From: Clostridiales bacterium
GTDB lineage: Bacteria; Bacillota; Clostridia; Oscillospirales; CAG-272
NCBI GenBank assembly: GCA_012800735.1
Contig: JAAZIU010000013.1
Coordinates: 248,001 to 312,000 of the forward strand
Length of the DNA: 64,000 nt
Direction of reading: 5' to 3'
Shown here in pieces: positions 49,253 through 55,471 of the stretch. The notes under the pieces are model-generated. The model had not been told where the DNA came from, did not search any database, and saw nothing but the letters and a program-made list of their open reading frames with translations. How positions within the stretch are numbered: the stretch's first letter is position 1; each line of letters opens with the position of its first letter. A program made the position numbers and the translations under genes.

Positions 49253-52200
49253 GTGACTATGATGAACAACCTTTTCGACGGACTAAACTCAGATCAATTA
49301 AGGGCGGTCACTTCAACCGAGGGCTATCTTCGGGTCATCGCCGGAGCCGGTTCCGGCAAAACAAAAACGCTTACCCATCGATACGGATATCTTGTCAAAG
49401 CCGCCGGTATTCATCCCTCAAACGTCCTCTGCGTCACCTTCACCGCCAAAGCCGCCGGAGAAATGAAACGGCGGGTGCGGGAGCTTGTCGGCGAAGGTTA
49501 TGACAACTCGCTTATCACGACTTATCACGGCTTCTGCGTACGGGTGCTGAGAGGAGATATCAGCCATCTCATGTGGTCGGAAAGCTTTGCGATAATCGAC
49601 GAATCGACAAAACGGAAGCTGCTTTCCGAGATTTACGCCGAAGAAGATATACGAATGGATCAGACGACCTACGAACGGGTTGTCGCGGCGATGCATCGGC
49701 TGAAATCAACTGAAGACTATGTCCGTCCCATGGTTGACGGACGTCCCGAAGATGTCGCATTTAACGATAAAATTTCGACCGACGGACTGGATATCCATAT
49801 TATCCGCAGGTTTCTAAAAAAACAAAAGCAGATCTACGGTCTTGATTTCGACGACCTGATTTCATTTACCTTTTCGATTTTCAACTCTTTCCCCGAAGTC
49901 GCGCAGAAGTGGGCGGAACAGCTTTATTACATAGAAGTAGACGAATTTCAGGACAGCTCCAAGCGCGAGCTGAGACTTATAAAAACGCTCTGTTCGGCTC
50001 ACAAAAATCTTTTCGTCGTCGGCGACCCCGACCAGAATATCTACGAATGGCGGGGGGCGGATATGTCAATCCTTGTCGACTTCGAGCAAAATTTCCCCGG
50101 CGCGGAAACTATAACGCTCAACCGCAACTACCGCTCTGACGGAAATATCCTGTCGGCGGCAAACGCGCTAATCGCATACAACAAAAACCGGGTGAAGAAG
50201 GATCTTTACACCGAAAGCCAGCCCGGAGAGCCGGTAAGATGGCTGCATCTGCGTACCGAGGAGGAAGAGGGCAAGGCTATTTCGACCGAGATAAAAAAGC
50301 TTATCTCCCAAGGGTTCAGCTACAGAAATATTGCCATATTGTATCGCGCCGGTTTTCTATCTCGCTTTGTTGAATCTGCTCTCGGCTCGGCTCATATCCC
50401 GTATGAGCTTTACGGTTCGGTCAGATTCTACGACCGGATGGAGATAAAGGATGCGCTGGCTTATATGAGGCTTGTCGTCTTCGATGACGATGAAGCTTTT
50501 GAGCGGGTAATTAATCTTCCCCGACGGAATTTCGGTAAGAGCCGTCTCGCCGCGCTTAAAGCGATGGCGGAGGAATCGGGGCAATCGCTGTTCGCGGCGC
50601 TGAAAGCCTCGATTGATAACAAGCTGTTTTCCTCCACCGGCGCCCCCGGATTTATTGAGCTTATCGACTCGCTTCGGAAGGAAAAAGATAATTTGTCGGT
50701 ATCCGCTTTGCTCGGCGAAGCGCTCGGCCGCTCCGGATATGAAGATTACATCCGCGCGGCGGGTAGCATGGAAAGACTTGACAACTTAGCCGAATTAAAG
50801 CGCTCGCTCTGGAACAGAGAACAGGCCTGGGGGGAAAAAATGACCCCCTCTCAGTGGCTGGATCTCATCGACATCGAAGCTGCGGAGGAGAAAGATTCCG
50901 ACTCCGACAAAGTTAAGCTGATGACGATACACGCAGCAAAGGGGCTTGAGTTCCCGGCGGTATTTGTCGTCGGGATGACCGAAGGCATTTTTCCGTTGTC
51001 AAGAACTCTTGAGGAACGCAAAAACGAGGGGCTTGAGGAGGAAAGAAGGCTCTGCTTCGTCGCGCTGACAAGAGCGCGGAAACGGCTGTTTCTCACCGAC
51101 TCGGAGGGCGGCGAGGAAGACCGGCGGAAACGACCGTCAAGGTTTCTCTACGACATAGGCGAAGACAATTTAGTGAGAACCGGCGAAATCTCAAAGGAAT
51201 TGCAGAACAAAACGACTGCGGCTGCCGATGTTGAGACAACTGCTTCCTCATCCGGACTTTTGCCGGGCAGCCGCGTGAATCACCCTATCTTCGGCGAAGG
51301 AACCGTCGAGCGGAAGGATGAAGTGAAAAATGTATACTATATCCGCTTTGACAACAAAGGCGAACTGCGTCCGGTAAGCGCCGATTATGATTTCGCCGCC
51401 TGGAGCGGGATCGGCGAAGCGGCGGATAAAGCTATCGAGAAAGCCGAAAGCCGAAAAGCCGTCCACAAAGCGCAGCCGCTTGCAGAAACCGAGACGAAGC
51501 CGCCCGATATTCCGTCAGCCGATACCGTTTCAGCAGAACCGCCAAAAACAGAAAAGTTGTCGGAGATTCCCTCTCCCTCCGTCTCCTCCGATAACGAAAA
51601 TGATATGTTTAAATCCGAAGCAGAAAATATTGATATTGCCGATAAGGCAAACAAAAAAGAAAACCACGATCAGATAAAGTTTTCAATCGAGAATATCGGG
51701 AAGGAAGCGGCGGAAAGAGAAGAAGAAATAACAGAAGAAGCAGAAAATATTACCGAACCGCCGAAAACCGAAGAAAAAACCGAATCTGAAAGCGATATCC
51801 CGCAAAGATACCGGAATGCCGAGTGGATGGAGCCGACAGAAGGCGAGACCAACTTATGGAAGCGGAATGATGTTCCGCATACCGGCTGGTATTGCACCGG
51901 TGTAATCGATCTCGGCGCGCCGGTCGGGACCTGCCGGATGTGCGGCTATCAGATAATAAGATATGTCCACGTTATGCGGCATAACGAATATCCGCGCGCG
52001 ATCGGCGCCGGCTGTGTCTGCGCCGGCAATATGGAGGGCAGCGTCGAAGGCGCCAAAAAGCGGGAAAATGACTATAAAAACCGTCTCGGACGCAAAAAGA
52101 ACTTCCTGAACACGAAATTCAAGAGAAGCCGAAGCGGAAACAGTTATTTCAAATACAAGGGCGAGATTATAACCGTCATCGAAGATAAGTTTAAGCGGGG

Positions 52201-52312
52201 TTTTTATAAAACCGTTTATAAGGGCGGTTTTTCTCTGCCGTTTGCCAGCGTCGGCGAGGCGCTCTCCGCTCTCTTCGAACAAATTGATCCCTGGGACTAC
52301 CGCGATATTTGA
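49253..52312 (+). CDS. UvrD/PcrA-like superfamily 1 helicase with acidic linker and Cys-rich C-terminal domain
   Basis: VIAGAGSGKTKTLTHRYGYL, EVDEFQDSS, VGDPDQNIYEWRGAD, MTIHAAKGLEFPAVFVVGM; C-terminal CRMCG...GCVCAG. Confidence 0.92.
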   Translation: MTMMNNLFDGLNSDQLRAVTSTEGYLRVIAGAGSGKTKTLTHRYGYLVKAAGIHPSNVLCVTFTAKAAGEMKRRVRELVGEGYDNSLITTYHGFCVRVLRGDISHLMWSESFAIIDESTKRKLLSEIYAEEDIRMDQTTYERVVAAMHRLKSTEDYVRPMVDGRPEDVAFNDKISTDGLDIHIIRRFLKKQKQIYGLDFDDLISFTFSIFNSFPEVAQKWAEQLYYIEVDEFQDSSKRELRLIKTLCSAHKNLFVVGDPDQNIYEWRGADMSILVDFEQNFPGAETITLNRNYRSDGNILSAANALIAYNKNRVKKDLYTESQPGEPVRWLHLRTEEEEGKAISTEIKKLISQGFSYRNIAILYRAGFLSRFVESALGSAHIPYELYGSVRFYDRMEIKDALAYMRLVVFDDDEAFERVINLPRRNFGKSRLAALKAMAEESGQSLFAALKASIDNKLFSSTGAPGFIELIDSLRKEKDNLSVSALLGEALGRSGYEDYIRAAGSMERLDNLAELKRSLWNREQAWGEKMTPSQWLDLIDIEAAEEKDSDSDKVKLMTIHAAKGLEFPAVFVVGMTEGIFPLSRTLEERKNEGLEEERRLCFVALTRARKRLFLTDSEGGEEDRRKRPSRFLYDIGEDNLVRTGEISKELQNKTTAAADVETTASSSGLLPGSRVNHPIFGEGTVERKDEVKNVYYIRFDNKGELRPVSADYDFAAWSGIGEAADKAIEKAESRKAVHKAQPLAETETKPPDIPSADTVSAEPPKTEKLSEIPSPSVSSDNENDMFKSEAENIDIADKANKKENHDQIKFSIENIGKEAAEREEEITEEAENITEPPKTEEKTESESDIPQRYRNAEWMEPTEGETNLWKRNDVPHTGWYCTGVIDLGAPVGTCRMCGYQIIRYVHVMRHNEYPRAIGAGCVCAGNMEGSVEGAKKRENDYKNRLGRKKNFLNTKFKRSRSGNSYFKYKGEIITVIEDKFKRGFYKTVYKGGFSLPFASVGEALSALFEQIDPWDYRDI

Positions 52313-52339: not shown

Positions 52340-52368
52340 TTGACTTAACGCCGTCTTTATGCTACAAT
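52340..52368 (+). promoter_or_regulatory. Sigma-A type promoter for the MutS-like pair
   Basis: TTGACT-17 nt-TACAAT. Confidence 0.72.
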
Positions 52369-52421: not shown

Positions 52422-53888
52422 ATGCCTTCAGTTGCTTTGCCAAGCCTTTTATTCTGCAAATCGAACGCCGATTGTCCCAAAATCGAGCCCGAGGTTTTTG
52501 CAGACGTCCGTCTTACCTCGCTTTTGCCGCCGAATACCCTTGACGCCGTCGGTTATATTTTGAGCGAGGAAGATATCATCGCCCGCCGGGAAATCTTTGC
52601 CTGTCTCCAGGACACGGGATTCAGAACCCGCTTAAGCGCGCTGAGAGATTCCGCCGAAGAAGCGGGCAGATTCGACGATCTTTACAACGCCGCCCGTTCC
52701 GACAGTGAGCGGGATATCATCTTCGTTTCGCTGATGAAAGCAGTCCTGGAGTTTTATCGGCTCGCCTCGGTTTTGGGAGGCGAGGGGGCGCTGCTCTCCC
52801 GCTTCAACGATTATTTCTCGGCTCAGGTGAATATGAGCTGGTTCCGCGAAACTTCCGATTCGATCGAAAAGACATATCCGCTTGTAACATCGGTTCTGCA
52901 CAACCGCATCTGCCTGATGACAAAAGGAGAAAACATCCGGGTGCGCGACAAAGGAAAGCGATCTTATCTTTCGATTATTTCCGAATGCGCGGAAAACTTG
53001 GGTCTCGAAAAGCCCCCCCGGCAACCTACGCCGCCGACGCCGCTGTCGATTAACATAATCGAAGGGATTGTAAAAGCCGCGCCGGACGAATTTGCCGCCT
53101 TCTCGGAATTTCGTAAAAACCGAATGCCTTTTTACGACAGAACGCTGCTTTCTTATATTTCTCAGCTTGGATTTTATCTTGGATTTGTTTCGGTGTTCGA
53201 CCGGGTAACGGCGGCGGGAATTCCGCTGATCTTCCCCGTCATCTCCGACGAAAAGCGGTTTGAGATTAAAGACGCTTACGATATTACCCTGCTTGCAAAA
53301 GACAGCCTGAAAATCGTACCCAACGACGTCAGCTTTACCGAAAAAGAGCCTTTCTTTTACCTTACCGGCGCAAACGGCGGCGGCAAGACAACCTATCTTC
53401 GCGCAGTCGGAGTGGCGACGCTGATGTTCTCGATAGGCTGCCCCGTCGCCTGCGAAAAAGCGGAACTCAGCATACCCGGCGGCATCTTTACTCATTTCCC
53501 GCGGGACGAGCGTTTTGACTCAAGCGGGCGCTTTTACGATGAACAGAACCGCGTCGACCGAATACTTGAAAAAGCGGACGAACGATCTGTTGTGCTTCTA
53601 AACGAAACCTATTCCGCGACTTCGGAAGACAGAGCCGTTACCCTTACCGCCGCGCTCGGAGCAAGGCTGTTCAAAACCGGCGTCTTCGGGCTTTATATAA
53701 CCCATCAGCACGGCATAAGCCAGACAAAGGTTCCGTATCTAAACGTTGTAGTCGATGTTGCGGCGAACAACCGCCGCACTTATAAGGTTGAGCGCCGCCG
53801 CGCCGACAAAAGCAGCTATGCCCGGGATATCCTTGAAAAATATCGCCTTACCCGGGAGCATTTGGGCGAGCGCTTCGGCGAAATATAA
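52422..53888 (+). CDS. MutS-like ATPase A (MutS core/ATPase domains only)
   Basis: Walker A LTGANGGGKTTYLRAVG, LLNETYSATSED in place of MutS LLDE.GRGTS, THQH. Confidence 0.82.
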   Translation: MPSVALPSLLFCKSNADCPKIEPEVFADVRLTSLLPPNTLDAVGYILSEEDIIARREIFACLQDTGFRTRLSALRDSAEEAGRFDDLYNAARSDSERDIIFVSLMKAVLEFYRLASVLGGEGALLSRFNDYFSAQVNMSWFRETSDSIEKTYPLVTSVLHNRICLMTKGENIRVRDKGKRSYLSIISECAENLGLEKPPRQPTPPTPLSINIIEGIVKAAPDEFAAFSEFRKNRMPFYDRTLLSYISQLGFYLGFVSVFDRVTAAGIPLIFPVISDEKRFEIKDAYDITLLAKDSLKIVPNDVSFTEKEPFFYLTGANGGGKTTYLRAVGVATLMFSIGCPVACEKAELSIPGGIFTHFPRDERFDSSGRFYDEQNRVDRILEKADERSVVLLNETYSATSEDRAVTLTAALGARLFKTGVFGLYITHQHGISQTKVPYLNVVVDVAANNRRTYKVERRRADKSSYARDILEKYRLTREHLGERFGEI

Positions 53889-53923
53889 AATGGAACAGAA
53901 GATCATATTTCGGGAGTCATGAC

Positions 53924-55471
53924 TTGAAATTCAGTATACTTTACAGAGAACCGGAAAAAAGCGGGCGCGGTGAGGTGTTCGATTTAGCATACGAACTTTC
54001 GCTCGACCGCGCAGTACGCAAGCTGATACCGGATACGCGAAGAGCCGATTATTTTTTGGGAGTTCTTACCCGGCCGCTTACCGATGTGGCTTCGATAGTT
54101 TATCGTCAGCAGATTCTTCGGGATTTTATTGATTTTCCGGATCTCTATGATGAGCTTCGGACGTTGTTTTCCCGCTACGACCGCGTGCGCGCCGACTGGC
54201 AGGGAATGCGCTCCGGCGCTCATCCTCAATCGGGGGCGATCAACCGCCGGGCGCTGCTTGATTATACCTTTGCCTCGCTTAAGGTTACGGCGATGTTTCC
54301 GAAAACCCTCCTTTCTTTTTACACCTCTTTCGCCGACGCGATAGACAAATATGAGGTTCAAAGCGAGGGGTTGAAAAGGATCGCCGAATACTGCCGCGAA
54401 ATGCTTGAAAACGACAGCTTAAACGAGATAGAACGGATATCCGCTCTTTTCAGATACAAAACTCCCAAGGATTTTGAATTTTCCTCTCTTGCCGAGCTTG
54501 ATCAGGCTATCCGCCTCGTCTCCTGCGACCTTTGCGGTATTGAAGAAATCGATGATAAACCGATAAATCCGCTGGTTAAGTTGTTTACACGCAAAAAAAC
54601 CGGCGAAACTCCGGTATTTGACATCGAAAGCGACGAAGCGACGGTTGACGACGCGCTTTACATTTCAAACGAATCGCTCCGCCGTATCGATGCGGCGCTG
54701 ACGGCGGTTACCGGCGGGATTTACGACGTCTTCTTCGGTCTTTCGACCGAGATAGTGTTTTATGACGCCGCGCTTGAAATAATCCGCAGCCTTGACGAAC
54801 TTAATATCGATTTTGTATTTCCCTCCGTCTTTCCGCCCGAGGATGACGGATTTCGGCTGCTTTCACTGCGCGACTTTTCTCTTATAATCGAAGGTAAAAC
54901 CGGCGACGACATAATCCCCCGAGACGCAGCGCTTATGAAATCGTCTGACGGTTTTCTGATACACGGCAAGAGCAACACCGGAAAGACTTCGCTTTTGCGC
55001 GGTATTGCGATAGCCCATATTTTCGCGCAGGCAGGTCTGCCGGTCACGGCAAAAACCGCCGAGCTTTCGATACGCCGGGGGCTTTACGCGCACTTCAGTT
55101 CCGCCGAAGAAGACTTCCGCGCGGGAGACACCGCCGGACGGTTTGAGGGCGAGGTACAGCAGATGGCGAGGATAATTGACGGAGTTGAAGATCATCCGTA
55201 TTCGCTGATTCTTTTAAACGAGACATTTCAGACCACCTCGTATTCGGAAGGCGCGGAGGGAATGTGGGATATACTTGACACTCTTCATTTAGTCCGAGCT
55301 AAATATATATTCGTCACCCGAATGAACAAGATGTTCGATTTTATCGACCGCGACAGAGTCGGTACAGTCGAAATGACGACCGAATTCCCGCGATTCCAAA
55401 ATCCTGCGGAGCTCTCCGGCGCAGCGGCGCAGGAGCATCCTGCATATATTGAAGGAAAAACCGAACAATAA
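53924..55471 (+). CDS. MutS-like ATPase B (divergent)
   Basis: Walker A IHGKSNTGKTSLLRGIA, AELSIRRGLYAHF like the partner's AELSIPGGIFTHF, LLNETFQTTS, TRMN. Confidence 0.8.
   Translation: MKFSILYREPEKSGRGEVFDLAYELSLDRAVRKLIPDTRRADYFLGVLTRPLTDVASIVYRQQILRDFIDFPDLYDELRTLFSRYDRVRADWQGMRSGAHPQSGAINRRALLDYTFASLKVTAMFPKTLLSFYTSFADAIDKYEVQSEGLKRIAEYCREMLENDSLNEIERISALFRYKTPKDFEFSSLAELDQAIRLVSCDLCGIEEIDDKPINPLVKLFTRKKTGETPVFDIESDEATVDDALYISNESLRRIDAALTAVTGGIYDVFFGLSTEIVFYDAALEIIRSLDELNIDFVFPSVFPPEDDGFRLLSLRDFSLIIEGKTGDDIIPRDAALMKSSDGFLIHGKSNTGKTSLLRGIAIAHIFAQAGLPVTAKTAELSIRRGLYAHFSSAEEDFRAGDTAGRFEGEVQQMARIIDGVEDHPYSLILLNETFQTTSYSEGAEGMWDILDTLHLVRAKYIFVTRMNKMFDFIDRDRVGTVEMTTEFPRFQNPAELSGAAAQEHPAYIEGKTEQ

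Follow-up and report, generated by a model that had tools for sequence, protein, structure and literature searches.

Three described kinds of MutS-type ATPase can be set beside the gene pair reported here. The first is mismatch-repair MutS1 together with MSH2, MSH3 and MSH6, which have in common with the pair the lever and ATPase domains, Walker A and the catalytic Glu, and whose C-terminal motif has a counterpart in the first of our two proteins, A. The pair is unlike them in that the recognition and connector domains are absent, the clamp is reduced, the Walker B Asp is replaced by Asn and a Ser-Thr is replaced by Gly-Arg. The second is MutS2, which also has the ATPase core and no mismatch-recognition domain, whereas its Walker B motif is Asp-Glu (D-E), its clade is a separate one and its Smr domain has no match in the pair. 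The third is KamC (NF052383), the reactivase ATPase of lysine 5,6-aminomutase, a short MutS-fold protein of about 540 aa that is encoded beside a P-loop partner gene. However, the KamC partner is not MutS-like, and KamC itself keeps D-E (LIDELARGTN) and groups with MutS2. The Asp-to-Asn change of Walker B is found in E. coli MutS D693N (PDB code: 3k0s), which surfaced in our fold search; this is a mismatch-repair MutS with a point mutation made in the laboratory, and it serves as a mechanistic guide only. The MutS-fold ATPase is already known, and what appears to be new is an obligate two-gene family of short proteins with Asn-Glu (N-E, or NE type) in Walker B, a clade that no model in Pfam or NCBIfam names.

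The pair lies in a window of 64,000 nucleotides from a contig of a Clostridiales bacterium (JAAZIU010000013.1), and its features are on the forward (+) strand. Gene A (52422..53888, +) encodes a short MutS-like ATPase of 488 aa, the putative first subunit (MutS_V, 7.2e-19), with full-length homologues at 80 public loci. Gene B (53924..55471, +) encodes the putative second subunit, a short MutS-like ATPase of 515 aa (MutS_V, 3.8e-11). Its TTG start at 53924 is conserved and is backed by relatives, which mostly open with M-K-[FY]-S-[IL]-L-Y or similar. The two genes are 35 bp apart, and a first-pass annotation had proposed that they share a promoter. A promoter-like site with an extended -10 (TTGACT-17-TACAAT, with TG; 52340..52368, +) ends 54 nt upstream of A and is the probable promoter of an A-B unit, and the same scan gave no forward promoter-like site between A and B. 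This fits a single transcription unit, but only as a consensus match from a scan that found 5 sites in the region against 2.8 expected by chance. Elsewhere in the window, a UvrD-type helicase of 1019 aa (49253-52312, +) ends 110 bp upstream of A; its Pfam UvrD domains stop at residue 617, and the long C-terminal remainder has no Pfam match. The sole Rfam match in the window at the gathering threshold is a lysine riboswitch (RF00168; 41531-41723, -; 72 bits).

A and B consist of the MutS lever (III) and ATPase (V) domains only. MutS_V is the sole Pfam model above cut-off in both (A 68.9 and B 43.7 bits against 30.2), MutS_III is sub-threshold in B, and neither MutS_I, MutS_II nor a nuclease or Smr domain gave a Pfam match in A or B. 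Of the MutS_III and MutS_V search that had been proposed as a check, the second half gave a match above cut-off in both proteins, and the first stayed below threshold in B. Since the profile of B aligns with MSH2 from residue 333 to 792, the two proteins cover the lever and ATPase domains without those for mismatch recognition and connection, which agrees with the earlier remark that they have no room or obvious motif for an N-terminal mismatch-recognition domain. The AlphaFold2 models have a mean pLDDT of 87 for A and 83 for B. Their best Foldseek matches are MutS and MSH proteins (MSH2/MutS), and at the position of the MutS clamp they have only a short beta hairpin. By the MutS_V scores and the predicted fold, both belong to the MutS fold superfamily.

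The best database names for A and B are MutS, and there are sub-threshold matches to PRK05399 (A 72.5 and B 38.8 against 480 bits) and to the mutS1 model TIGR01070 (A 61.9 and B 38.5 against 641.7 bits). These could be taken to mean that the pair are ordinary mismatch-repair paralogues, that is, a split or degenerate MutS1. We consider this extremely unlikely, given the missing recognition and connector domains, and because the short proteins form a separate clade (100/100) and the genome also encodes a complete MutS1 and a complete MutS2. MutS2 itself fits no better (TIGR01069, A 59.4 and B 16.7 against 400 bits). The earlier view that the pair is neither MutS1 nor MutS2 is therefore upheld by the tree and by the content of the genome. 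KamC is also among the sub-threshold matches, and the pair could be a KamC-like reactivase of one particular cobalamin or radical enzyme. Nevertheless, A reaches 60.2 and B 27.9 bits against the NF052383 cut-off of 300, KamC keeps both D-E and S-[TS]-F, the gene before kamC is not MutS-like where we read the locus, and no aminomutase was recognised as a neighbour of the pair. Membership of A and B in KamC was rejected by score, motifs and tree, and we regard a KamC-like role for one such enzyme as very unlikely.

The motifs were surveyed in homologues taken from public genomes, 80 of A and 71 of B, with Walker B of B aligned in 69. Walker A of A (GANGGGKTT, 53367..53393, +) is invariant as G-A-N-x-G-G-K-T in 80/80, with G as the fourth residue in 79. 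In Walker A of B (GKSNTGKTS, 54965..54991, +), the first G and GKT are invariant (71/71), the family form being G-x-N-x-x-G-K-T, so that the P-loop Lys is invariant in both. Walker B reads VVLLNETYSAT in A (53589..53621, +; Asn394, codon 53601-53603) and LILLNETFQTT in B (55205..55237, +; Asn432, codon 55217-55219). The N, E and T of A are each present in 80/80 homologues, and the N and E of B in 69/69, and such invariance of the Asn is not chance. The first-pass annotation had noted the loss of the Walker B Asp in both proteins and named its absence from close relatives as a refutation; the aligned homologues of A and B carry N-E throughout, and none of them has the D-E of MutS1. The other catalytic residues are kept in the family. 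At the Ser-Thr position of the MutS loop STFxxE, where MutS1, MutS2 and KamC have S-[TS]-F, A carries G-R (53526..53531, +; R370 in 80/80, G369 in 77/80), and so does B (55136..55141, +; 69/69). A has THQH at the MutS THxH position and B has TRMN (55316..55327, +), which had been put forward as a defining feature of B. The second residue is H in 54, R in 11 and W in 4 of the 69, and TRMN is, on this alignment, a local variant of a position that is TH in most B. The two reading frames, their spacing and all six motifs that the annotation had listed, namely the Walker A and Walker B motifs, THQH and TRMN, are at the places it gave.

Two features distinguish the subunits outside the nucleotide sites. 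The C-terminus of A (SSYARDILEKYRLTREHLGERF, 53811..53876, +) resembles, as judged by eye, the helix-turn-helix and dimer region of MutS; S[YF]xxDILxKYxL is conserved in A and absent in B, and this tail is the clearest A/B asymmetry that the alignments offer. B has a basic-aromatic loop (NPLVKLFTRKK, 54566..54598, +) that links the short beta hairpin to the following long helix, in a low-confidence region of the predicted model. Similar loops recur in relatives as far as Klebsiella plasmids (NWFRRFFSRK). A reading of this loop as a beta-clamp-binding motif was dropped because the leading Gln is absent, and the net charge of the lever region was uninformative as an indicator of DNA binding.

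The two genes travel together. B is directly 3' of A in 71 of the 80 public loci, and in 34 of these the two genes overlap by 4 bp (modal spacing -4). It also adjoins A in all of the order-level genomes (21/21) whose A match exceeds 380 bits, by a comparison made by hand. Nine loci have no adjacent B. Two of them stop at a contig edge; the other seven genomes were searched, and all of them (7/7) hold a full B elsewhere, at 350 to 472 bits. The idea that some A homologues are true singles was therefore rejected. The distance matrices of A and B are correlated in a mirror-tree comparison (r = 0.91, while 999 permutations gave no value above 0.17); since the kinship of the host genomes alone also raises r, this is supporting, not decisive, for the pairing. 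The genome of the window also contains one further A and one further B, at a distance of about 28 kb from each other on a single contig. Overall, the A-B pair looks obligate from its distribution, and it is co-inherited across many genera in Clostridia. The co-occurrence survey that had been called for thus favors the obligate and asymmetric pair that was proposed, the asymmetry residing in the tail of A. One argument for a heterodimer has to be given up. The N-E change had been read as a sign of it, and the same change is found across Clostridia in short MutS proteins encoded by single genes, which occur in this class beside the tandem pairs. Because single-gene relatives are also NE, the Asn is not a consequence of pairing.

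In the tree of ATPase domains, all of the short proteins split from MutS1, MutS2 and KamC at 100/100. When the plasmid pairs described below are added, all A/B-type first genes come together in one clade (85/87) and all second genes in a second one (82/81); the inner order of the two clades matches, and the support of these two deep branches is moderate. On this tree, A and B lie on the two mirrored branches of one old duplication, together with other clostridial pairs and with the plasmid pairs of Enterobacterales, Burkholderiales and Rhodococcus. The window pair belongs to the short NE tandem-MutS family, being a tandem with one member in each branch and N-E in both Walker B motifs. Several relatives deserve separate mention. 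Most genomes of its own family have a single paralogue of about 540 aa that has D-E (LLDESLSST) in the members checked, yet a G-R loop. A single short MutS with N-E (LILFNETFSTT; L189:6311-7873) is located between rimM and trmD. Degenerate tandem pairs are found in one class-level family (L155, L156 and L157), the first gene having no recognisable Walker B and the second ALNELFETV. An unannotated 'Bacteriophage sp.' record (L220, MT837116.1) contains a tandem NE pair beside a radical-SAM gene and bacterial-looking genes, and it is probably not phage DNA. A clostridial-type A gene is filed under Candidatus Colimorpha enterica of the Bacteroidota (L114, JAGHTD010000243.1), which is possibly mis-binned.

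The neighbourhoods in Clostridia are lineage-specific, and we found no conserved general neighbour. In 14 loci of its own family, A is preceded by a one-transmembrane protein of about 190 aa, M, with a 4-bp overlap in half of them; examples upstream of A are L145:9399-9962, L141:4039-4602, L187:4718-5266, L186:4328-4981 and L194:4722-5453. More distant M homologues precede pairs in other families. M has no match in Pfam or the PDB, and a search of the window's own genome gave no homologue of it. In a different lineage, A lies downstream of genes for an HD phosphohydrolase (dgt-like), dnaG and rpoD, at 10 bp or less from rpoD in several genomes, and in a third it follows a CpsB/CapC phosphatase gene. 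Because the neighbourhoods vary by lineage, they indicate no single partner.

These surroundings bear on a possible alternative that we hold tentatively, in which the pair would clamp nucleic acids as MSH4-MSH5 or MutS2 do, by binding branched DNA or a ribonucleoprotein (a stalled ribosome, for instance), and would control recombination or rescue. Nucleic acids are the target of most known MutS-fold proteins, the lever helices are kept, and Holliday junctions stimulate the MutS2 ATPase (PMC4739419). The lineage with the pair often a few bases from rpoD and the single NE relative beside rimM would also suit such a role. What speaks against it is that the clamp has shrunk to a hairpin with no nuclease or Smr domain found, that no repair gene recurs as a neighbour, and that the plasmid relatives travel with fluoride-resistance genes and not with repair genes.

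A search of plasmid proteins with B gave tandem relatives in Klebsiella, Citrobacter, Enterobacter, Escherichia and others, as well as in Caballeronia, Burkholderia and Rhodococcus. Like A and B, these are tandem genes for proteins of about 510 aa in the same order, with NE in both, with G-K or a similar pair of residues where MutS has S-T, and with members in the same two branches. They differ in being only about 25% identical to A/B, and in that the first gene has TF for TH; in one such gene (L213:7307-8842) VTF stands at the MutS TH position and N-E is kept. The annotated neighbours are a cation:proton antiporter, universal stress proteins, crcB, eno and phosphoglycerate mutase, and further a pyrophosphatase, a P-type ATPase and a chloride-channel-family protein. 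The plasmid pairs sit in fluoride-resistance islands, mostly under fluoride riboswitches. In E. coli, Klebsiella and Enterobacter, the riboswitch (RF01734) precedes the operon. In Caballeronia it comes immediately ahead of the pair, and in Burkholderia it is about 90 bp upstream. Rhodococcus also has the pair in a fluoride island, though RF01734 was found there before crcB and not directly upstream of the pair. As a separate observation, NE pairs near genes for complex I-like or hydrogenase-type membrane subunits occur in one clostridial locus (L184:6760-10147) and in two fluoride islands of Burkholderiales (L216 and L219). Carriage on plasmids might suggest an anti-phage or mobile-element defence. 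This is scarcely credible to us, since PADLOC gave no good match (best E 0.003, to the P-loop only), the plasmid context is fluoride resistance, and some clostridial lineages place the co-inherited pair among housekeeping genes.

In 2010, the crcB motif was reported to precede 'DNA repair (mutS)' genes (PMC2864571), and an Enterobacter cloacae operon of ppaC, uspA, eno, gpmA and crcB under a fluoride switch confers fluoride resistance (PMC5533749), though the MutS pair is not included in that operon. The plasmid pairs are probably among the 'mutS' genes of 2010. The description of the system as undescribed thus needs qualification: no Pfam or NCBIfam model covers the clade, while plasmid members were probably noted then and read as DNA repair. 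In the open-access literature searched, we found no paper that joins the fluoride riboswitch and MutS, with mutS under crcB in PMC2864571 only; descriptions in subscription journals may have been missed. The fluoride-riboswitch 'mutS' genes, where seen here, are by their motifs short NE pairs and not mismatch-repair MutS, and the location of such pairs in fluoride islands casts doubt on the old DNA-repair reading. For the window pair, there is no RF01734 in the window, in its own genome or near the pairs of 24 other clostridial genomes. The fluoride link therefore bears on the family and not directly on the window pair, to which it may not extend.

We suggest that A and B form an obligate heterodimer, a slow ATP switch that has its role outside mismatch repair and that grips and releases a partner, and we give this reading as a whole a probability of about 0.5. 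By analogy with the MutS family, A and B would form a physical heterodimer with two composite ATP sites. Each site would have an intact Walker A and catalytic Glu, with Asn for the Mg-binding Asp, and would take Walker A from one subunit and the loop Arg from the other, where MutS gives Ser. Loss of the Asp would weaken Mg coordination, and together with the Arg in trans it leads us to expect slow hydrolysis and a nucleotide-gated switch, not a fast ATPase. That Walker B is sensitive is indicated by MutS2, in which a mutant of the Glu, the residue neighbouring the A/B Asn, has an approximately tenfold loss of ATPase activity (PMC4739419). The lever ends, including the basic-aromatic loop of B, could grip and then release the partner. 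At modest odds, we favor a protein or ribonucleoprotein partner over DNA, and conjecture that such a complex is remodelled or reactivated; KamC, a short MutS ATPase to which NCBI gives the name of an enzyme reactivase, is a precedent. On mobile elements, the pair would help cells to survive fluoride.

A and B point to a MutS-fold family that is widespread and has no name so far, in which the two genes of the heteropair have been inherited together since a single old duplication, with the Mg-binding Walker B Asp replaced throughout. In public records, the family is named 'DNA mismatch repair protein MutS' or hypothetical, and this can mislead repair surveys. The family also offers a testable angle on the puzzle of 2010, that is, the reason for a 'mutS' under the fluoride riboswitch. 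As a bolder proposal, and one that is improbable as it stands, the family could be a MutS-fold machine of two subunits, dedicated to freeing or reactivating Mg-dependent enzymes or ribonucleoproteins caught in dead-end complexes, for example of fluoride with Mg. The 'mutS' of the fluoride regulon would then not be for DNA repair, and the clostridial pairs would apply the same chemistry to other stresses. If true, the reactivation of dead-end complexes would be a function not recorded before for MutS proteins that act in pairs.
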